From positions 1 through 28,088 of the IMG/VR virus record IMGVR_UViG_3300037226_000066: a DNA stretch of 28,088 nucleotides; one strand, given 5' to 3'. Both the position numbers and the translations under genes were made by a program. Positions 4,372 to 27,845 of the stretch are shown one piece after another. A model generated the notes under the pieces. The model was not told the origin of the DNA, ran no database searches, and saw only the letters and a program-made list of their open reading frames with translations. Position 1 is the stretch's first letter. Each line of letters begins with the position of its first letter. This DNA is from a virus.

Positions 4372-5844
4372 TCACTGCATTGGGCTGACCCAGAAGGTGC
4401 CGACGAGCCGCATGGAACTGGCGACACTGCTCTTCACGAGACCTTGGATCTGAGTGACCCGCTGGCTGAAGTAGCCGATCTTTTCGAGTTCAAACGTCCT
4501 GAGTGGCATCCCGTCGGTGTTCGTCTTCCAGCCCGAGTCGAGAACGGTCGAGTCCGACAACGTGATCTGAACCTTGTAGGCGTCGGTCGTCGGATCGAGA
4601 ATCAGTGCCCGGCCTGGGACGTCGCATGTCACGAGCCCATCGCGCAGTAGCCAAGATCCACTGGTGGGCGTGAACGTGAACGCGACTACCCCGGTTGGCG
4701 ACGGAGTGACTGAGTCGGTGGCCGACAGGACATCCACGCACTCGACGTAGGTGTCGAACTGGATGCCGCCCGCCTTCTTAACCCGCGCCTCTTCTTGAAT
4801 TGCCCGCAGGGACGCGCGCAGCACGGGGTGCAGTCCGATGTCCGGGTATCCCCACACCGGATCGTCGCAGAATCCGTCATCACAGTACAGGACCGAGCCG
4901 TCCGGCTCTTCAAGTGGGCCATCGACGGCCAGGCGGAAGTAGGCACGACCCTCCCGAATCGAAGGCGTCTCGCACGTGCGGAACGGTTCCTTGCCTGGAA
5001 CGTCCACGCCCAACGGATCGTCGCAGAAGCTGTCGTCACAGAAGACCGAGTCGGCGAACACCAGATTGATGGCCGTTCGCGCGTCGTCGGTCGCCTGGTC
5101 GCGCATGGGTTCCACCATGTAGACCGGCGGAAGGTTGCCCTGCGACTGCGCGCCATGGACCGCCTCTTGAATCGCGATCGGTGTGACGGCGTCGGGAATT
5201 GCACGGACCCTCAAGCGGTACGCTTCGCCGTCCTCATTGGGCTGGCGATGGCATCCTCTCTCGTCGCCGTGGGCCGAAAGCCAGTCCATCTTGGCTCCCA
5301 CGATGGTGGTGGAGGCCGCGTAAGTGAGGGTGCCTTCTCCGACCCCGAGCAGGTAGACGCCGAGGGTGTCCTGCACGACTCCGTCATCGGGCGACAGGAT
5401 GACGTCGAGAGTGTCGCCTATTGACAAGACGTCGTCGAACGCCGGATCGACCGTGTTGACCAAGTCGATCCATCGAAGTGATTGGAGCGGCAGCGTGATG
5501 CTGGTCTGGTGGGCCGCGACCGGGACATCCAGGCTCACCATCAGCTCGACGCCCGTGCTGGTCACGAACTTGTAGCCCTTGGGGATCGTGGCGGTGGCGA
5601 TCGAATCGACGCGGGTCAAGGTCAGGTTGCACCGACCCGGACATCCCGAGGGGGCCGTCGAGATCATGCCAGCATCGACCTGCTCCATCAGAGCACTGCT
5701 GGTGGCCTCGAAAACCGCAAGCTTGCTGGCGATGATGGCCTGACCATCTGGCTGGCGGAGCATGCCGTTCAGCCAGCCGTCGTCGGTGGTCCGGCGCAAC
5801 AGCGCCAAGACTTCGGACTGCGTGATGGGGCCGGACTCGCTCAT
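4372..5844 (-). CDS. Second baseplate J-like / wedge protein with CDD motifs
   Basis: This is a 490-residue protein whose ATG overlaps the stop of the J gene upstream (ATGA). Residues about 70-145 (IPKGYKFVTSTGVELM, then a D/V-rich strand pair) and about 195-240 (RQPNEDGEAYRLRVRAIPDAV, then IQEAVHGA) follow the layout of the Baseplate_J family: an early beta region, then an 'E-D-YR-R' helix segment. An unusual motif occurs twice, VFCDDSFCDDP at about 267-277 and LYCDDGFCDDP at about 319-329. Such closely spaced Cys-Asp-Asp units could bind a metal or simply cap beta turns. Context between J and a fibre-region gene supports a baseplate wedge role. The family assignment is by pattern only. Confidence 0.55.
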   Translation of the reverse strand: MSESGPITQSEVLALLRRTTDDGWLNGMLRQPDGQAIIASKLAVFEATSSALMEQVDAGMISTAPSGCPGRCNLTLTRVDSIATATIPKGYKFVTSTGVELMVSLDVPVAAHQTSITLPLQSLRWIDLVNTVDPAFDDVLSIGDTLDVILSPDDGVVQDTLGVYLLGVGEGTLTYAASTTIVGAKMDWLSAHGDERGCHRQPNEDGEAYRLRVRAIPDAVTPIAIQEAVHGAQSQGNLPPVYMVEPMRDQATDDARTAINLVFADSVFCDDSFCDDPLGVDVPGKEPFRTCETPSIREGRAYFRLAVDGPLEEPDGSVLYCDDGFCDDPVWGYPDIGLHPVLRASLRAIQEEARVKKAGGIQFDTYVECVDVLSATDSVTPSPTGVVAFTFTPTSGSWLLRDGLVTCDVPGRALILDPTTDAYKVQITLSDSTVLDSGWKTNTDGMPLRTFELEKIGYFSQRVTQIQGLVKSSVASSMRLVGTFWVSPMQ

Positions 5845-8631: not shown

Positions 8632-10784
8632 GCGACCACCTGTCGAAGCGCCACGTCTTCGATGGACGCGGTCCTCTGTTGCTGCGCACTGAGCGCCTTC
8701 GCCTTGGCGGACAGCGGCTTCTTCTTCCGCGCGTCGTTCATGGCCTGGCTGTCCTGGTCCATGTTGGCAGGGTCGTTGCTCGGCATGTAGTTCGCCAGCT
8801 CCATCGAGCAATGGAAGAACTCGTCGTCGGCCTTGAACTGCAGGCGGATCCCCTTGCAGTAGTAGACGGTCGGCAGTTTGGCCGCCCGGTAGGCCGCCTG
8901 AATCTTCTGGGCCGTGCCCAGTAGCTTGTTGGTGTCCAGTGACCCGTCAGTGCGGAACGTGCCCCAGCGGTCGTTCTGCTTGGTCAGCAGGTCCACGATC
9001 TGATCGCCCTTGAGGTCGTAGAACTCCGACAGGCTGCAAATCGTCAGATCGGAACTGTCGGTCGACTTCTTCGCCACCGTCACGTGAACGGGGCTGCCGG
9101 CGCAGAGGCGCAGGATGTCCGGGCTCTCGTTGTGGTTCTCGACGAGGGCACCCGCGGCCGCGCTCGCCACCGGATCGATGTAGCTGGCCAGCTCGTCGGT
9201 CTCCAGCCCCATCGTCAGCTCGGCCCGGGTCAACTGGTGGTACAGCGAGACGGCCGCCCGGTCCAGTGCCTCCTGGTTGCGGACCCCCTTCAAAACAAAG
9301 GTGCGGATCACGTCGATCTTCCCGCCGCCCTTCTCGGTCATCTTGTGGGCTGAGCGTCCCTTCCCCTTGGGCTTCTTCGGGTTGTGCTTGGGGAATCGGG
9401 AAGACATCACCCGCAGGGTGTCAGAGGCGTCTGGGTTGTAGGCCCGCACTTCAACGGCCGTGGGCCGTACCTTCCCCATGTGGCGCGCCAGCTTCATCTT
9501 GGCCAAGTTGTGGCCCCACACCATGAAGCGGACGTCTGAGGTGAAGGTGCCGCCACCGCTGTTGTAGCCGAAGTCCCGCGAGAACCCGTCCCGCGCCCCG
9601 CCCTTGATCTGAACGGCGCTGGTGATGTCGTCGTAGAACGCCTCGGGTGGCGTCACCAGCAGGCAGTTCACCGGGTCGATCATCGCCAGTCCGTCGGTGC
9701 CCGCTGAGGGATTGGGGAATGGCGGCAGGCTCGGCTTGTACATCGGCATGACGCCACACAGCTCGCACGCCTGCGTGATGAGGTCCCAGATCGACATCCC
9801 ATCCTCGGTCACGGCCTTGGGCGGCATCATGGGGGAACCAGCCCCGGCCGCGTCTCCCTGCCCCGATGGGTCTGCGGCTTCGCCCGTGGGGTCCTGCTGG
9901 GCGTTCGCGTCCTGGGTGGGAGACTGCCCCGCGCCGGCGTTGCGGCTCTTGGCGGTCTGGAGAGAGCGCAGGAGGGTCTTGCGGTCGAGCGTCGGCTCTT
10001 TCTCCTTGGGGCTCGCGTACCAGTAGGCACGGAACGGGTAGCCCCCGGTGTCACCTGAGGTCGGCGGGTACAGGGACAAGATCCGGTTGATGTAGACGGT
10101 CAACAGTTCCGAAGACCCCTGGATGCGGTACGCCTTGGCGTGCTGGTTGATCTTCCCATCGATCAGCGTCCCGATGTAGCTACGCGCCTTGATGTGCACC
10201 GTGTTGCTGGCTTCGTCGGCCTCCATCTCGGTCAGGTCCACATAGCCGTTGAACCGCAGCACGCTGGTCTTCGACGGCACCGGCGCGAGGCACCAGTTCT
10301 CGGGGGTGGCGAAGTCTCCGGACTTCACGGTCCCCACCCACGCCTCGACGCGAATCTCTCGCACGATCAGCGGGTTCAGCGGCATGTCGACGAAGGGGAA
10401 GCTGGCCTCCAGTGTATCGGCCTCACGAAATCCCTTGTCCTCGATGGTCAACTCCATGGGGGATGTCGCGAAGTCGACCGAAAACTCATCGGATGGTCCG
10501 TTGTCTCCGGCTGAGGACTTACCGCTTCTCTTGGCGGCGCTCTGCCGCAGGCTCGCCGAGGTCTTCAGCAGGTTGAGCGTCGACAGCTTGGAATACTTTC
10601 CGACTGCGCCCTCCTGCGATAAGAACAAGTCGGTGAGCTTCGCCTGGTTGAGCTGCAGCTTCATGCCAGAGGAGTACGGATCGGCTCCATCCTGGGCGCT
10701 GGAATCGTCGGTCTGACCGAAGTCCTCCAGCCGCACGTGGAGGCGTAGAAGACACGCCGGTCGGTAGAGGCGCGGTTCGCTCAC
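8628..10784 (-). CDS. Baseplate hub protein (gpD-like)
   Basis: This is a 718-residue protein started at GTG 10784, which overlaps the stop of the LysM gene (GTGA) and has a GGGGGGA run upstream. A GTG at 10799 is also possible. The beta-rich N-terminal part (ELTIEDKGFREADTLEASFPF, then VREIRVEAWVGT and LRFNGYVDLTEM) matches the layout of late-control gene D / gp27-type hubs, in which two barrel domains bind the spike. A disordered, Q/N/D/G/P-rich insert lies at about residues 275-325. The C-terminal tail is basic and helical. At 718 residues it is much longer than typical gpD (about 350-400), so it probably carries additional domains. Adjacency to the spike gene supports the call. Confidence 0.65.
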   Translation of the reverse strand: MSEPRLYRPACLLRLHVRLEDFGQTDDSSAQDGADPYSSGMKLQLNQAKLTDLFLSQEGAVGKYSKLSTLNLLKTSASLRQSAAKRSGKSSAGDNGPSDEFSVDFATSPMELTIEDKGFREADTLEASFPFVDMPLNPLIVREIRVEAWVGTVKSGDFATPENWCLAPVPSKTSVLRFNGYVDLTEMEADEASNTVHIKARSYIGTLIDGKINQHAKAYRIQGSSELLTVYINRILSLYPPTSGDTGGYPFRAYWYASPKEKEPTLDRKTLLRSLQTAKSRNAGAGQSPTQDANAQQDPTGEAADPSGQGDAAGAGSPMMPPKAVTEDGMSIWDLITQACELCGVMPMYKPSLPPFPNPSAGTDGLAMIDPVNCLLVTPPEAFYDDITSAVQIKGGARDGFSRDFGYNSGGGTFTSDVRFMVWGHNLAKMKLARHMGKVRPTAVEVRAYNPDASDTLRVMSSRFPKHNPKKPKGKGRSAHKMTEKGGGKIDVIRTFVLKGVRNQEALDRAAVSLYHQLTRAELTMGLETDELASYIDPVASAAAGALVENHNESPDILRLCAGSPVHVTVAKKSTDSSDLTICSLSEFYDLKGDQIVDLLTKQNDRWGTFRTDGSLDTNKLLGTAQKIQAAYRAAKLPTVYYCKGIRLQFKADDEFFHCSMELANYMPSNDPANMDQDSQAMNDARKKKPLSAKAKALSAQQQRTASIEDVALRQVVA

Positions 10785-18945: not shown

Positions 18946-19358
18946 CACGCCACCCCGATCATGCCGGTCTGAACCTTGCCACCGAGCGACTGCAGCGCCT
19001 TGAACCGCGCCGAGAAGGGGTAGATCGTACAGTGCAGGGTGTCCGATAGGCGGGCCACTTGCCGCATATACTCGCCCTCCAGCATGTTGGTCTCGTTGGC
19101 GTTCAGCTCGATGCCGTCGACCTTGCTGGCCTGCATGCGAATCTGGGCGTCGACGATGGCCCCGTCGATCATGTCGAGTCGGGCCACCAGCTCGCGAACA
19201 AGCGACTCAGCCGCCGGCAGCAACAGCACGAAGGACCGTTCCAGCAGAGTCATCAGGGGACTGTCGAGGGGAACGCCGGCCGACAACGAAGGGCCAGCCG
19301 AAAGGTTCGGATAGCCCATGTGGTAGCGGATGCGGACCTTTTCCCCGTCGCTCAGCAT
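18945..19358 (-). CDS. Head-completion / connector-like protein
   Basis: This is a 137-residue protein that starts one base after the upstream stop. The opening DGEKVRIRYHMGYPNLSAG, with 'RYHLGYP', is a recurring start of small phage head-tail connector proteins. A long helical part follows (FVLLLPAAESLVRELVARLD to MLEGEYMRQVARLSDTLHC). An adaptor role between portal and tail is inferred from position and helical content. The recollection of the opening motif is from general familiarity, not a search. Confidence 0.5.
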   Translation of the reverse strand: MLSDGEKVRIRYHMGYPNLSAGPSLSAGVPLDSPLMTLLERSFVLLLPAAESLVRELVARLDMIDGAIVDAQIRMQASKVDGIELNANETNMLEGEYMRQVARLSDTLHCTIYPFSARFKALQSLGGKVQTGMIGVA

Positions 19359-19359
19359 G

Positions 19360-19737
19360 TCAGGTGACCGGCTCCGTGCGTACCTGGTTCAGAATCTCGC
19401 GGAACCCCGAGTTGCTGTAGACGTTGGCGTCGAGCACGTCGCCGGCGGTGAACCGGCAAGGGTAGCCACCGATGATGACCTTGGCGCTCTGGAGCACGCG
19501 CACCCGCGTGCGTGGGGCTTCGACGACGGGCATCTTGATGTCGTCCGGCGTGGTGTCGCCCATGAAGTTCTGCGCCACCGTGACGTCCAGTGCCTCGACG
19601 GGCGAGTGCTCGGCCTGGAACTCTTCGACCGTCACCGCCACCCCGGCGAGGGGATCTTCTTTGACGGCCGCGGCAGGGGCCACGCCCTCGCCCGGCTTGT
19701 CCTTCTTCTTGGCTGACCTATCGCTCATCAGGCTCAT
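19360..19737 (-). CDS. Small head-region protein, unknown
   Basis: This is a 125-residue protein with an AGGAGA ribosome-binding site seven bases before ATG 19737. This is the first coding signal after the structured-RNA region, so translation restarts here independently. The first 35 residues are charged and low complexity (SDRSAKKKDKPGEG). The remainder is a small beta-rich domain (RTRVRVLQSAKVIIGGYPCR, then FTAGDVLD), which resembles short 'FTAGDV' barrel-like domains seen in virion accessory proteins. The function is unknown. Confidence 0.6.
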   Translation of the reverse strand: MSLMSDRSAKKKDKPGEGVAPAAAVKEDPLAGVAVTVEEFQAEHSPVEALDVTVAQNFMGDTTPDDIKMPVVEAPRTRVRVLQSAKVIIGGYPCRFTAGDVLDANVYSNSGFREILNQVRTEPVT

Positions 19738-19739
19738 GG

Positions 19740-20270
19740 GGTTTCTCCTGGTCGAAAAGAGGCGGGACGTAGGACTCCAGCGCGTGCAGATACATGCTTT
19801 GTCCCAGCACGATGGGGTCTGCTCTTGCGAGAGCCGAACGTCATGGCCGAAGCCACCGGCCGACGAAAATCATCGGGGCCGCCAGAGGGGGACGCGGTTC
19901 CGTGGCCACAGGCCAGGGTCTGCGTTCCCCGAACGCAGCACAACATCTCGGACACGGCACGAGGCCAGTTCGAGTTCGCCATCAAAAACGGGCGCATCCG
20001 CTGAGTGACCAGACCAAGCGAGCGCGTATCCGTAACCATCAGGCGACAAGTGCTGCTAACCGGCATGTTCGTATAGGCGAGCGCCGAAGCACCGCCACCA
20101 CGTCGGCGGGCCAGAACACAGCGACACGATCGCGTGTGTTTACGACTCGAAAAGAGTCCAGGCCCATTTATTGGCCCGAAGGCCAAACTCGACGATGGCA
20201 TACCCGCCGGCTCAAGAGCCGTTCGTGTCGGGTATGCCTCGTGTCCAAACATAGCTCCTCTGAGACGAGG
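19740..20270 (-). ncRNA. Candidate large structured RNA downstream of the capsid gene
   Basis: This gap of about 530 bases lies between the capsid stop and the next ribosome-binding site. No frame gives a convincing protein, but the minus strand is packed with hairpins. They include a 10-bp helix 20238-20229/20206-20197 enclosing a 6-bp hairpin 20221-20216/20213-20208. A TTGGCC stem with TTCG loop lies at 20186-20171, GACTC/GAGTC at 20158-20144, and a bulged 10-bp hairpin at 20140-20115. A bulged 8-bp stem with TTCG loop lies at 20096-20076, and a perfect 8-bp stem at 19938-19920. Further stems are at 19915-19903, 19876-19860, 19856-19843 (TTCG loop) and 19834-19821. Three stems contain G-U pairs valid only on this strand. 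The style resembles GOLLD/ROOL phage RNAs; class membership is not established. Confidence 0.7.
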
Positions 20271-20274
20271 TTGG

Positions 20275-21699
20275 CTAGACGTGCTCGCAAACGACGCAGC
20301 GCTTATAGCGCGCAGAGTCACCAGTCGCCGCGTCGGTGCGGGTCGGCCAGTCCATGATGGTCTTCCACACGCCGGTCACGAGATCGCCCATCACGTTGAC
20401 AGGCGCCCGAAGGTAGCACTGCACGCGATCGACGTTCACTTCCACTCCGTTGTTGGTGAGCTGGCTGAAGTCGCCAATCTCGCCGTTGATGCCGGCCTCA
20501 GTGATGAGCCCGCGCAGGTCCGCGTAGTACTCGTAGATGGCCTCGGCGCCGATGAAGATGGGGCGCTGCACTTCCGTGCTCGGGATCGCGCTGACGGTGG
20601 CGCCAGTCGTGAACTCGCCTCCGAAGCGCTCGCCCGTTCGCGGGTTGCCGTTGTAGGTGTTCTGCAGGCCGCCCGCGATGGTGGACTTCTTCGGGGTCTC
20701 GGTGTCGTTGAACACCAGGGTGCCCAGCACGTCGCCCAGCGTGAACTCCTTGTACCAGTAGTAGTCGGGCAGCGAGGTCAGGAGTCTCTGCGCCTCGTCG
20801 CTCGCGAAGAGCTGGTTCTTGGAGTAGCTGTTGAAGTGCGAGTGGTAGAAGCCGTCGGGCATCTTGGGGACGTTCGAGTCCTCCAGGCGAGCGACCGCCT
20901 GGCGGAACATGTCGAACGTGAACACCGAGGCCGCCAGAAGACCGTCGACCGACAGCATGGTCGATGCCGGCCGCACGATGAACGAGCAGTCGTCCGACCA
21001 GACCGGATCACGTACTGCCAGCGTCACGGTTTCCGTCACCGTCAGAACGCCGGGGCCCGTCTCGTCTCCCGAGTACGTCGGGGTGAACCCCGTCGCGGTG
21101 GCGTCGTGGGTGACACCGCCGTTCTTGTAGTGGATCTTGAGCGGGTTGGTGACCGAGATGGCCGCGAACTGCACGGGCGAGCCGGCCGACAGGTCGGGGC
21201 GGCGCGCGGTCGTGAGACCGTTCAACCGAGCGACCGTGATGGTGGTGCCGGACGCCTGCACTGCCGTGCAGACCGTCTGCCCACTCAGACCGGCGTTGTA
21301 GAGACGGTCACGCACGCAGCGGTTGAGCGACTGCGCGGCATGCAGGCCGAGCTGATGCACGTTGTTGGTGAACAGGTTGGCGATCGCCACGATGCTCGTC
21401 GGCATGCTGGTGTCGGGGCACCGACCGGCATACTGATGGAGCTGCATGTTCCACTGCTCTTTTTCGTAGTCGATCGCTTCCGGCTCGTCGCGCGGGTTCA
21501 ACGGGTTGGTGGTGGGGGCCATCAAACCGTTCCCCGTGAAGACGAACTGATCGCCGGCCTGGCCGGGCTGCAACACGGGGGCTGCTTCGCCGCGGAACAG
21601 GTTGCGCGGGTACAGCGCGTCCTTCATCTCGCGGATGAGGGCGTTGTCTTGCACGAGGGCGCGAATCGTCGGATCTTGCTGAATGACTGAGAAGTCCAT
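20275..21699 (-). CDS. Major capsid protein
   Basis: This is a 474-residue protein with an AGAGGAA ribosome-binding site before ATG 21699. It follows a scaffold-like gene and opens the virion block. Features consistent with an HK97-fold capsid subunit of the N4 gp56-like type are an N-terminal helical part (TIRALVQDNALIREMKDALY) and a 'LGLHAAQSLNRCVRDRLYNA' spine helix. Later come 'DMFRQAVARLEDSNVPKM' and 'FYHSHFNSYSKNQLFASD' (P-domain-like region), and a late 'PIFIGAEAIYEYYADLRGLI' segment. The C-terminus ends KRCVVCEHV with a CxxC pair, which is unusual. The family call is by pattern; gene order strongly supports it. Confidence 0.8.
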   Translation of the reverse strand: MDFSVIQQDPTIRALVQDNALIREMKDALYPRNLFRGEAAPVLQPGQAGDQFVFTGNGLMAPTTNPLNPRDEPEAIDYEKEQWNMQLHQYAGRCPDTSMPTSIVAIANLFTNNVHQLGLHAAQSLNRCVRDRLYNAGLSGQTVCTAVQASGTTITVARLNGLTTARRPDLSAGSPVQFAAISVTNPLKIHYKNGGVTHDATATGFTPTYSGDETGPGVLTVTETVTLAVRDPVWSDDCSFIVRPASTMLSVDGLLAASVFTFDMFRQAVARLEDSNVPKMPDGFYHSHFNSYSKNQLFASDEAQRLLTSLPDYYWYKEFTLGDVLGTLVFNDTETPKKSTIAGGLQNTYNGNPRTGERFGGEFTTGATVSAIPSTEVQRPIFIGAEAIYEYYADLRGLITEAGINGEIGDFSQLTNNGVEVNVDRVQCYLRAPVNVMGDLVTGVWKTIMDWPTRTDAATGDSARYKRCVVCEHV

Positions 21700-21749: not shown

Positions 21750-22592
21750 TTACCCCAGCCCGGTCGATGCGCTGCGAAGGCCCTTGTTGCGCTTGTAGGC
21801 TTCGAACTGCTGCTTCGTCATCGACATGACGTCGACCTTGCCGGCTGCACCGGCTGCCGCGGCGGTGGCGCCTGGCCTGGGCGCCGTGTGCGATCCTGGG
21901 ATAGCCCCGGTGGTTCCTGTGGTCGCAGGGACCGTGACTTCTCCGAAAAGGTGCGGGTGCTGCTCGCGAAGGCCATTGAAGTACGCCTTCTCGTCGAGCT
22001 TCGCCAACTCCTCTTCGCTCTTCCCTTCCTGCGCCCGAAGGTACAGGGTGATTGCGTAGTCGGTATCCCGGATGCCGCACCCGAAGGCGATGCGCTCCAG
22101 ATTGGCCTTGGCCTCGATGGCGTTGGCCCGGTTTTCCGCCTTGCGCCTGCGCTGCTTTTCGATCGTCAGTGCCCGTTCACGCTGTTCGTCTGCGCGCTTC
22201 CACTTGGTCCGATCCTGCTCGTACTTCGCCATGGCCTGACGGTCATTGCGATTCTTGGGCGGGAGCGGAGGCTGTTCGGTCGTCGCGGGAGCCGCTGGCG
22301 GCTGGACCGGTTGTCGGCCCTTGGGCGCTACCCGCAAGGCATCCAGGTGCTGGAGCATGGCCGCGTGGTTGGCGAAGCCTCGTTCCGTTGCCTGTTTGTC
22401 CAGCTCAGCCTGAAACGCCAGTCTTCCCTTCGTCTCTGCCTTCTTCAATCGCTCGGAGAAGACACGACTCGGGAGAACGACGTTCTTGCCTTGCTGTGCG
22501 GGTTGTTCCGCCGGTGTCGGCGGGACCACTGCTGGGGTTTGGGTGGGCGGTGGATTTGCTGCTGGTGTCTCTACTGCTACTGGCTCTGGCAT
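21750..22592 (-). CDS. Capsid scaffolding-like protein
   Basis: This is a 280-residue protein with an AAGGAG ribosome-binding site before ATG 22592, immediately upstream of the capsid gene. The N-terminus is a Pro/Ala/Thr-rich disordered tract (about residues 1-35). A long charged helical region follows (KRADEQRERALTIEKQRRRK, then AENRANAIEAKANLERIA). The short C-terminal helix VMSMTKQQFEAYKRNKG is of the kind that contacts capsid subunits in scaffold proteins. Composition and position are typical of scaffolds, which direct procapsid assembly and leave before DNA packaging. No protease motif is seen. Confidence 0.7.
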   Translation of the reverse strand: MPEPVAVETPAANPPPTQTPAVVPPTPAEQPAQQGKNVVLPSRVFSERLKKAETKGRLAFQAELDKQATERGFANHAAMLQHLDALRVAPKGRQPVQPPAAPATTEQPPLPPKNRNDRQAMAKYEQDRTKWKRADEQRERALTIEKQRRRKAENRANAIEAKANLERIAFGCGIRDTDYAITLYLRAQEGKSEEELAKLDEKAYFNGLREQHPHLFGEVTVPATTGTTGAIPGSHTAPRPGATAAAAGAAGKVDVMSMTKQQFEAYKRNKGLRSASTGLG

Positions 22593-26081: not shown

Positions 26082-26287
26082 AGGGGAGCCTTGTTACCGC
26101 CGGTCCACCCCGGTGGGCAACCATTCCACGATGGCGGATCGGGCGGTGGGAGGACGTCGCCATAGTCTGGCATCGGGACAGCGGCCACGCGCATCCCCAT
26201 CTCCGCGGCCCGCGCTTCAGCCACGGCACGATCGTCCCATGCGGAGTCGGGGCCGGTGATACAGTGGACGACGTAGATGGTCTTCAT
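26078..26287 (-). CDS. Small 69-residue protein, unknown
   Basis: ATG 26287 overlaps the stop of the methyltransferase gene (ATGA); the longer upstream frame lies inside that gene. The product starts with a beta strand (MKTIYVVHCITGPDSAWDD), then a helix (RAVAEARAAEMGMRVAAVP), and ends in a Pro/Gly/Trp-rich tail (DPPSWNGCPPGWTGG). No family is recognised. Translational coupling suggests a link with the methyltransferase. Confidence 0.6.
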   Translation of the reverse strand: MKTIYVVHCITGPDSAWDDRAVAEARAAEMGMRVAAVPMPDYGDVLPPPDPPSWNGCPPGWTGGNKAPL

Positions 26288-26982
26288 GGGGTGCACACGA
26301 TGTCGTACTCGTGCTTCCCGTCGGCTGGGTTGAACGGCGCGCCCGTCCTGATGTCGGCACACCGCGGGTACTCCAGCCACAGCAGCTCCTGCCACAGGTC
26401 GCGGATCGTGAACCCGGCCGCGGCCAGTCCGGACTGGTGCACCTCCATGACCATGATGGGACGACACCGTAGAATCGTCAGGCGAGCCCCGCGCAGCGCC
26501 AGTACCTCGTGTCCTTCGACGTCCCACTTGATCAACGCAGGCGACAGACCGAGACTGTCCAGTGGGATGACCTTGATCGGCACGTCGCCACCGGCCGCAA
26601 TCTGGCTTGCTCCGACGTTGCTGCTCTTCGCGATGGTCAAGTCAGCCTCGCGGTCGCTCAGCCCGCAGTTGTACATCCGCACGTTCAAGCCGCCGCAGTT
26701 CTCCCGCAGACACGCGAAGCTCTCGGGCTGCGGCTCGAATGCATGAACCAACTCGGCCTTGGTGGCGTACAGTGCCGCGTGGTCGCCCAGTGAGGTGCCA
26801 GCATCCACGACAGTCGAGCCCTCGGGAATGAGCTTTAGCACTAACTCCGCCAGGCCCGCGCGGTCGGCGTCGAGCCGCTTGTCTTCTTCGATCCACCGGC
26901 TCAGGTGCGTGTCGTCTTTGAGGATTGCGATCTGCTGCTCGCCTTCCTTGCCGGGGATTGTGCCGGACACGTGGATGATCAT
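26284..26982 (-). CDS. FkbM-family methyltransferase
   Basis: This is a 232-residue protein started at ATG 26982 (MIIHVSGTIPG), which has a weak GAGAT site. Residues 58-73 (VVDAGTSLGDHAALYA) are the SAM-binding motif I. HAFEPQPESFACLREN at about 80-95 is the second strand with its acidic ribose ligand. IKWDVEGHEVLALRGA at 151-166 is the FkbM hallmark 'iK-DvEG-E--vL-Ga', followed by MVMEVH. FkbM enzymes O-methylate sugars and small molecules. In phages they often accompany glycosyltransferases, and one begins at the right end of this window, so modification of glycans or virion proteins is plausible. The substrate is unknown. Confidence 0.85.
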   Translation of the reverse strand: MIIHVSGTIPGKEGEQQIAILKDDTHLSRWIEEDKRLDADRAGLAELVLKLIPEGSTVVDAGTSLGDHAALYATKAELVHAFEPQPESFACLRENCGGLNVRMYNCGLSDREADLTIAKSSNVGASQIAAGGDVPIKVIPLDSLGLSPALIKWDVEGHEVLALRGARLTILRCRPIMVMEVHQSGLAAAGFTIRDLWQELLWLEYPRCADIRTGAPFNPADGKHEYDIVCTP

Positions 26983-27030
26983 GGGTTCATCTCGCTTGGC
27001 ATAGGCATAGCGACATGATACGCTTCGCAT
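26983..27030. promoter_or_regulatory. Short divergent intergenic region
   Basis: The 48 bases between the leftward methyltransferase start and the rightward small regulator start must hold at least one promoter. It contains a tandem GGCATA-GGCATA and a TGATAC -10-like box, but no clear -35. The 43-residue ribbon-helix-helix-like protein encoded beside it is a candidate local repressor. This is inference from layout. Confidence 0.3.
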
Positions 27031-27162
27031 ATGGAAAAGCACCTACTATCTTTTTCGAAGCCGGCCGACACGTGGTTGCGCAAGGAGGCCGCCCGCCTAG
27101 GAATACCGCTGACGGAGCTGGTGCGAAGGCTCGTGGATGAAAAGCGAGTGGCTAGCCGATGA
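27031..27162 (+). CDS. 43-residue ribbon-helix-helix-like regulator
   Basis: ATG 27031 opens a 43-codon frame: MEKHLLSFSKPADTWLRKEA, then ARLGIPLTELVRRLVDEKRV, then ASR. A short N-terminal strand (LLSFSKP) followed by two helices (ADTWLRKEAARLG and PLTELVRRLVDEK) is the CopG/Arc ribbon-helix-helix layout, in which paired strands read DNA. It ends in an ATGA overlap with the HNH gene, so the two form one translational unit. No strong ribosome-binding site is visible. Autoregulation of this unit is plausible. Confidence 0.65.
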   Translation: MEKHLLSFSKPADTWLRKEAARLGIPLTELVRRLVDEKRVASR

Positions 27163-27845
27163 GGATCTGCATCTGCGATAACGAATCCGTGCGTCTCTCG
27201 AAAATCAGGCAGCGTTTCTTTGCGAAGACGAAGCTTGCCGATTCCATCAGACCGGGCATGACGACTCCGTGCCTGGAATGGCAGGCGGCGCTGGATCATC
27301 ATGGGTATGGGAGACTCAGCAGCCGTCTAGGACGCGTCGGCAGCTGGGAAAGTGCCCACCGCGTAGCATGGGAGTTGGCTCACGGTCCAATCCCCGAGGG
27401 GCTGAAGGTGCTGCACAAATGCGACAACCCGCCCTGTGTTGCCGATGAGCACTTGTTTCTCGGAACGATGAAGGACAATACCAGGGACATGATGGCGAAG
27501 GGCCGGCAAAGTGCTCCGCCTCATTTCTGCGGCGAAGAGCACTGGTCACGTCGGCGCCCGGATCGCATAGTGCGCGGCGATGCGCATTGGTCCCACTTAC
27601 ACCCAGAGCGCATGGCGCGCGGAGAACACAGCGGCTCACGCTTGCATCCGGAGTCTCGCCCACGCGGAGAAGGGCACAGTAGATCCAAACTGACCGATGA
27701 GAAGGTGCGCTCTGTCTTCCAGCTTCGCGCCCAAGGATGGACCGTACTTCGACTTGCCGCCGACTTCGGGGTGTGTGTTAGGAACATCTACGACATCCTC
27801 GCTCGCAAGACGTGGAAACACGTGGAATTGGAGGTGCAATCTTGA
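27159..27845 (+). CDS. HNH homing-type endonuclease with tandem repeats and C-terminal HTH
   Basis: This is a 228-residue protein. The HNH core runs from AHRVAWELAHG (H67) through LHKCDNPPCVADEHLFLGT (H86, C88, D89, N90, C93, H98) to DNTRDMMAKGR (N107). This is the 'HR--w-l-hG-ip-g--v-H-CdnP-CvnpeHL-lgT--dN--Dm--kGR' form common in phage homing endonucleases. Residues 125-169 are three 15-residue repeats beginning G-E/D, similar in style to NUMOD-type DNA-contacting motifs. Residues about 178-215 (LTDEKVRSVFQLRAQGWTVL, then RLAADFGVCVRNIYDILA) are a helix-turn-helix. Catalytic residues look intact. It overlaps its neighbours by four bases on each side. Confidence 0.85.
   Translation: MRICICDNESVRLSKIRQRFFAKTKLADSIRPGMTTPCLEWQAALDHHGYGRLSSRLGRVGSWESAHRVAWELAHGPIPEGLKVLHKCDNPPCVADEHLFLGTMKDNTRDMMAKGRQSAPPHFCGEEHWSRRRPDRIVRGDAHWSHLHPERMARGEHSGSRLHPESRPRGEGHSRSKLTDEKVRSVFQLRAQGWTVLRLAADFGVCVRNIYDILARKTWKHVELEVQS
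27531..27665 (+). repeat. Three tandem 45-bp (15-residue) repeats in HNH gene
   Basis: These encode GEEHWSRRRPDRIVR, GDAHWSHLHPERMAR and GEHSGSRLHPESRPR; a fourth, partial unit begins GEGHSRSK. Key positions are G1, the acidic residue at 2 (and E/A at 3), S5 or S6, P9 and R15. The unit probably wraps along DNA between the nuclease core and the HTH. Confidence 0.8.

Follow-up and report, generated by a model that had tools for sequence, protein, structure and literature searches.

A large structured noncoding RNA downstream of the major capsid gene in one clade of uncultured phages

We conclude with near certainty that a noncoding RNA of about 488 nt is encoded on the late strand between the major capsid protein (MCP) gene and the next gene, that it is strongly selected in one clade of uncultured phages, and that it has ten or more conserved helices along with a three-way junction, the long-range closing helices P5 and P7, and an H-type pseudoknot. 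The RNA was studied in a 28,088-nt stretch of viral DNA (the window) and in its relatives. A large, highly structured late-strand RNA had been proposed in the first-pass annotation of this stretch, and conservation, covariation and the analysis of coding potential bore the proposal out.

Locus and distribution of the RNA

A 537-nt gap separates the MCP gene of the window from the next late gene, and both flanking genes lie on the minus strand. The features of the locus are as follows.

20275-21699, minus strand: MCP gene, the upstream neighbour (weak PHROGs major head protein match, phrog_1357, E 3e-5)
19755-20242, minus strand: structured RNA of about 488 nt, bounded by the conserved helices and the trailing U-run; ends approximate
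20192-20242, minus strand: P1 hairpin (20242-20229/20206-20192) with a bulged A, a near-invariant bulge ACACGAA (20228-20222) and an inner hairpin
20171-20186, minus strand: P2 hairpin with a UUCG loop
20108-20165, minus strand: P3 three-way junction, formed by P3 (GGGCC/GGCCC), P3a (20158-20144) and P3b (20140-20115)
20059-20107, minus strand: P4 helix with the P4a hairpin (UUCG, 20096-20076) and a 3′ bulge with ACGAA
19935-20056, minus strand: P5 domain, made up of the P5 closing helix, the P5a arm (20046-19976) and the P5b hairpin (19974-19947)
19887-19930, minus strand: P6 hairpin, variable, and shorter in L030, L033 and L041
19761-19883, minus strand: P7 long-range helix, GGCGG (19883-19879) with CCGCC (19765-19761), which closes the 3′ domain
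19860-19876, minus strand: P8 hairpin; the first loop bases are CUAG, AAUU or UUAA in most members and AUUU in the window
19843-19856, minus strand: P9 hairpin, with UUCG in the window
19766-19842, minus strand: P10 arm with P11 (19822-19819/19789-19786); contains the pseudoknot
Stem 1 CCC/GGG (19816-19814/19805-19803) and stem 2 (19811-19806/19798-19793), minus strand: H-type pseudoknot in the P10 arm
19755-19760, minus strand: U-run after P7, found in one form or another in all 16 sequences of the alignment
19360-19737, minus strand: next late gene (125 aa), with a GGAG-type ribosome-binding site at about 19748-19745

A scaffolding protein match was found at 21750-22592 (E 1.6e-5), and the 125-aa next late gene gave no family match. 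No tRNA was detected in the 28,088 nt searched, no sigma-70-like promoter in a scan of 19300-20800, and no terminator-like match to the consensus at the 3′ end of the RNA. Upstream of the head genes the window also carries an FkbM-type methyltransferase gene (26284-27042, minus strand; PF05050) and, on the opposite strand, an HNH endonuclease gene (27159-27845, plus strand; PF13392).

Using a sequence profile built from members, we found the RNA in all 34 IMG/VR contigs that encode an MCP at least 60% identical and reach past it; in one of them (L013) the profile match is only partial and the contig ends there. Five capsid loci that end inside the capsid gene (L011, L021, L022, L023 and L025) were left out of this count. 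The same profile matched none of 38 loci with a more distant MCP, taken from the best 80 of 139 relatives, with L115, L125, L139 and L152 set aside as the contig or the match stops too early. The MCP search of IMG/VR yielded 24 loci, or 36 when run as an alignment. A pattern of the RNA itself matched 32 IMG/VR stretches and a looser pattern 41, the latter adding two new members (L074 and L079) and seven matches judged to be chance (L072, L073, L075-L078 and L080), which are without window-like capsid or neighbour genes and by eye unlike the RNA. By contig name, compared by eye, the 32 + 2 contigs with the RNA are the same 34 as those with capsid loci reaching past the MCP. Patterns for P4a and P9 returned 26 and 12 stretches, all within the known set. 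Thus four pattern scans of IMG/VR and one of prokaryote genomes gave no true copy elsewhere; the single RNA-pattern match in the prokaryote genomes (L081) was by eye unrelated coding DNA and was judged chance. Capsid patterns matched 52 stretches of those genomes, none of which encoded a relative, and DNA searches of named phages and plasmids gave no match. Kromp and phiKX1 encode distant MCPs (27.6% and 23.8%), followed by 58 nt in Kromp and by an overlapping gene in phiKX1.

Each of six large contigs (6/6) carries one copy of the RNA. Between the window and its relative L003 the RNA is 99.6% identical, compared with 95.4% for the MCP, 91.5% for the scaffold and 95.0-98.6% for the next four genes; against L008, L015 and L018 the RNA is 2 to 6 points more identical than the MCP.

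We also considered whether the minus-strand frame at 20321-19734 is a protein-coding gene, a reading that we regard as exceedingly improbable. In 8 of 12 representatives a frame stays open across 480 nt, and tblastn matches it in relatives at 41-99%. However, substitutions are spread evenly over the codon positions (31/32/29 for L008, 49/45/48 for L015, 50/52/51 for L016 and 51/52/47 for L018), and even the most uneven pair (L019, 61/47/57) is without a third-position excess, whereas the MCP gene shows a third-position bias in the same pairs (95/78/156 for L008, 120/87/186 for L015). Frame-shifting indels of 1, 2 and 14 nt and stops in L016, L018, L030 and L041 break the frame, and neither PHROGs nor Pfam matches it. 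A conserved frame bearing synonymous changes, which would have spoken against the RNA, was looked for and not found, and the coding reading was rejected on the even codon positions, the frameshifts and the stops.

Comparative evidence for the fold

The proof of the predicted fold is comparative, not energetic. Folding against shuffled controls had been suggested at the outset, and for the minus strand of the window the result agrees weakly with a structured RNA (z -2.38; 2 of 100 shuffles fold as well), but the plus strand gives a stronger signal (z -6.28; 0 of 100), which goes against the strand assignment. In 12 sequences both strands lie below their shuffles, z running from -1.9 to -7.1 on the RNA strand and from -3.3 to -11.3 on the opposite one. 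As energy is weak and favours the plus strand, it was dropped as proof of strand or fold. The strand is given instead by the wobble pairs: consensus helices of 13 sequences contain 145 G-U cells versus 32 A-C cells, an excess from which the RNA is assigned to the minus strand, as had been claimed from the stems of the window.

The structure was built from 16 of 18 distinct sequences, aligned in four segments and folded jointly; the near-duplicates L002 and L017 were excluded. Covariation was then measured on a sequence-only MAFFT alignment of 13 sequences against 500 shuffles by five measures. Results showed two-sided changes in 88 of 157 pairs, compared with 44.2 +- 4.1 in the shuffled alignments, so that the covariation anticipated in homologues was indeed found. 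Likewise, 90.8% of the consensus-helix cells of these 13 sequences can pair (79.9% when shuffled, 37-42% when slid), and the covariation score is 0.355, vs. 0.163 when shuffled. No shuffle (0/500) reached any of the five measures, in a test that leans towards the structure because the consensus came from overlapping sequences. P1 is misaligned in the 13-sequence MAFFT alignment, where only 60.8% of its cells are paired.

A second test assumed no structure: all column pairs were scored with our own R-scape-like script under two tree-based nulls. Among the 20 top covarying column pairs, 15 are consensus pairs, as are 3/3 pairs at E<=0.05 and 5/6 at E<=0.5, the power of this test being limited by about 13 lineages. 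Finally, two domain covariance models were built from 10 sequences each, with L041, L074 and L079 held out. These three scored 101-117 bits with the 3′ domain and 116-127 bits with the 5′ domain (E 3e-21 to 8e-29), and matches to non-members did not exceed 19.9 bits. For the 3′ domain, sequence alone gave the held-out three 59-83 bits, less than the covariance model.

Individual helices can be followed in the same way. P2 pairs in 98.7% of its cells, with two-sided change in three of six pairs, and P7 in 98.3%, with two of five pairs changed on both sides; in P4 six of nine pairs show such changes. At 20063, in the 3′ strand of P4, the minus strand of the window reads C against T in L002 and L003; the C makes an A-C mismatch with 20103 and is private to the window contig among the close relatives compared. 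In the pseudoknot, two-sided change affects five of six pairs in stem 2 and none in stem 1, and across members stem 2 occurs as CGUGCU/AGCAUG, CGUCGU/ACGACG, CGCUGG/CUGGCG, CGGCGU/ACGCUG and CGUAGG/CCUACG. L030 and L035 carry an extra hairpin-like insertion of ~18 nt between P1 and P2, seen only in that lineage among the aligned sequences.

Most stems read from the window alone recur in homologues. The helix 20238-20229/20206-20197 is part of P1, which extends it to 20242-20229/20206-20192; the hairpin 20140-20115 is P3b; the three UUCG hairpins are P2 (20186-20171), P4a (20096-20076) and P9 (19856-19843); and the stem 19876-19860 is P8. Two other stems did not survive the comparison. The 8-bp stem 19938-19920 has all eight pairs only in the window and L003; the remaining 14 rows keep between 0 and 6 of them. 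The 11-bp pairing 20246-20236/19965-19950 is complete (11/11) in the same two sequences and keeps 4 to 7 of 11 pairs in the other 14. The latter had been proposed as possibly closing the core; it is not conserved, and conservation marks out P5 and P7 as the long-range helices instead.

Two further contacts are suggested by loop sequences. The P8 loop, which had been noticed before the test, opens with a palindrome (CUAG, AAUU or UUAA) in 11 of 12 representatives, while the group of the window has AUUU. Among 394 ungapped four-column stretches of the alignment, P8 alone combines at least 10 palindromic rows with more than one palindrome. In PMC12286853, symmetric kissing loops are argued for OLE and GOLLD from such palindrome switching, and loop L21a of GOLLD switches palindromes like the P8 loop. 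The P8 loop is a lead for a self-pairing contact that the RNA may make. In addition, the P3b loop UCGUGU (20129-20124) is the complement of ACACGA in P1 and almost that of YACGA in P4, the three sequences being near-invariant. UCGUG may make a tertiary or intermolecular contact with CACGA (P1) or YACGA (P4), one that lies beyond the reach of covariation because the sequences involved are too invariant.

Known RNAs and a second structured spacer

GOLLD and ROOL are abundant RNAs that form RNA-only cages, and GOLLD often lies near tRNA islands. The pRNA of phi29 is a phage-made RNA of about 174 nt for head filling, and Rfam includes a family for it as well as one for the Mu-gpT-downstream motif, which a 2017 survey of 224 motifs reportedly described as a structured RNA after a phage capsid gene. 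We searched the window and eight further loci with Rfam 15, and nothing reached a gathering score. In 19650-20350 a permissive scan listed four plus-strand matches, each scoring far short of its gathering threshold; GOLLD had no match at gathering score, nor was it listed at E up to 10 in this interval. No match was found to the Rfam models of ROOL, group I/II introns, HEARO, phi29 pRNA or the Mu-gpT-downstream motif. The last of these motifs is likewise a structured RNA after a capsid gene, from which the present RNA differs by the lack of an Rfam match. It differs from GOLLD and ROOL in lying in the head operon, again without an Rfam match, and from GOLLD in not being near tRNAs: only 2 of 20 loci have a tRNA, over 6 kb away.

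At the same time there are likenesses. In PMC12286853, whose GOLLD, ROOL and OLE profiles were taken from Rfam, GOLLD and ROOL are likewise large, elaborate, pseudoknotted phage RNAs of function not known, GOLLD often exceeding 800 nt and ROOL measuring 659 nt in a solved example; the same source describes self-association of phi29 pRNA. GOLLD accumulated in lytic growth and was dispensable in one prophage, according to PMC7567579. The same paper describes a noncoding RNA of phage ICP1 (~800 nt), that phage's most abundant transcript, which is likewise large and without tRNA neighbours but adjoins a lysis cluster. No description of the present RNA was recognised in the literature consulted, including the accessible portions of PMC12286853, PMC7567579, PMC8040213 and PMC7698491. 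On these comparisons we have filed the RNA as a putative new family among the large structured RNAs of phages, distinct from both GOLLD and ROOL.

A second spacer, here called type II, occupies the same slot in three neighbouring phages with MCPs 44-45% identical (L114, L116 and L117). About 355 nt follow the MCP gene and fold more stably than shuffled versions (z -4.8 to -6.5). In L116 type II spans about 5435-5790 and has compensated hairpins and a possible H-type pseudoknot. L114 and L116 are 76% identical here, and of 127 pairs compared between them 17 differ on both sides, 9 differ on one and 6 are broken. A type II pattern matched these three contigs only in IMG/VR. Models of the RNA from the window clade (type I) gave 11.3 bits (E 1.3) on L114 and nothing on L116 and L117, and since they do not recognise type II, we do not call the two homologous. 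The spacer of L113 (MCP 46%) is shorter and looks hairpin-rich, and in L118 and L120 (MCP 43% and 42%) an ORF of >200 aa starts within ~75 nt of the MCP stop.

Possible roles of the RNA

The RNA always occupies the same late-operon slot on the same strand, a position that a cis element fits as well as a processed RNA. Its presence tracks one capsid clade, which points to head assembly or capsid-gene expression. By analogy, we tentatively lean to an RNA that acts in trans over one that acts on the mRNA carrying it. It would be transcribed within the late head mRNA, released by host nucleases that its compact ends bring to a halt, and accumulate late in infection; it could then act in trans during particle production, the mode assumed for GOLLD and ROOL, perhaps after dimerising or assembling further via the P8 loop. 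The negative promoter and terminator scans, and the lack of the P8 palindrome in the group of the window, count against this reading.

There is a substantial chance, though, that the RNA is a cis element of the late mRNA, in which the fold and U-run would block exonucleases or slow the polymerase, keeping capsid mRNA above downstream mRNA, or would set translation of the next gene. Its fixed position in the clade, after the MCP gene and immediately ahead of the next gene's ribosome-binding site, agrees with this, as does the conserved U-run after P7. Yet a fold with every segment constrained exceeds the needs of a simple barrier, and the terminator scan leaves the 3′ end unmarked. Moreover, L079 has a gene between the MCP gene and the RNA (9166-9702, plus strand), an HNH endonuclease by PHROGs (phrog_3106, E 4e-25) for which Pfam gives no match, so contact of the RNA with the MCP stop is not needed. 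This arrangement was seen in L079 alone, and the adjoining HNH gene, together with the large size and the pseudoknot, would suit a mobile or self-processing RNA such as an intron, a HEARO-like element or a ribozyme. We consider such an origin very improbable, as the RNA matches no Rfam family, is intergenic and keeps to one site with one copy per contig (6/6), with the HNH gene seen only in L079.

A packaging or virion RNA like phi29 pRNA, which would bind proheads or the portal and be needed for filling heads, would suit the place of the RNA in the head operon, between the capsid and later head genes, its match to one capsid clade contig by contig, and the possible self-pairing of P8. We nevertheless judge this role improbable: the RNA is missing next to more distant capsids of this family (0/38, from the best 80 of 139 relatives), Rfam gave no family match, and no packaging enzyme was found in six contigs. 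There terminase was sought with three Pfam models and phrog_2, which we took to be the terminase family and which is probably the wrong one because it matched in 11 of 14 control genomes.

Returning to an RNA that acts in trans, a bolder version of it, which we rate as rather unlikely, is a new self-assembling class of phage RNA, encoded in the head operon one-to-one with a capsid clade, which might form oligomers via the P8 loop and help build the virion; type II would then answer the same need in a second way. The finding itself is an RNA of GOLLD/ROOL-like size, without an Rfam relative, that tracks one capsid clade, and as a compact family with a covariation-supported fold it is ready for structural work.
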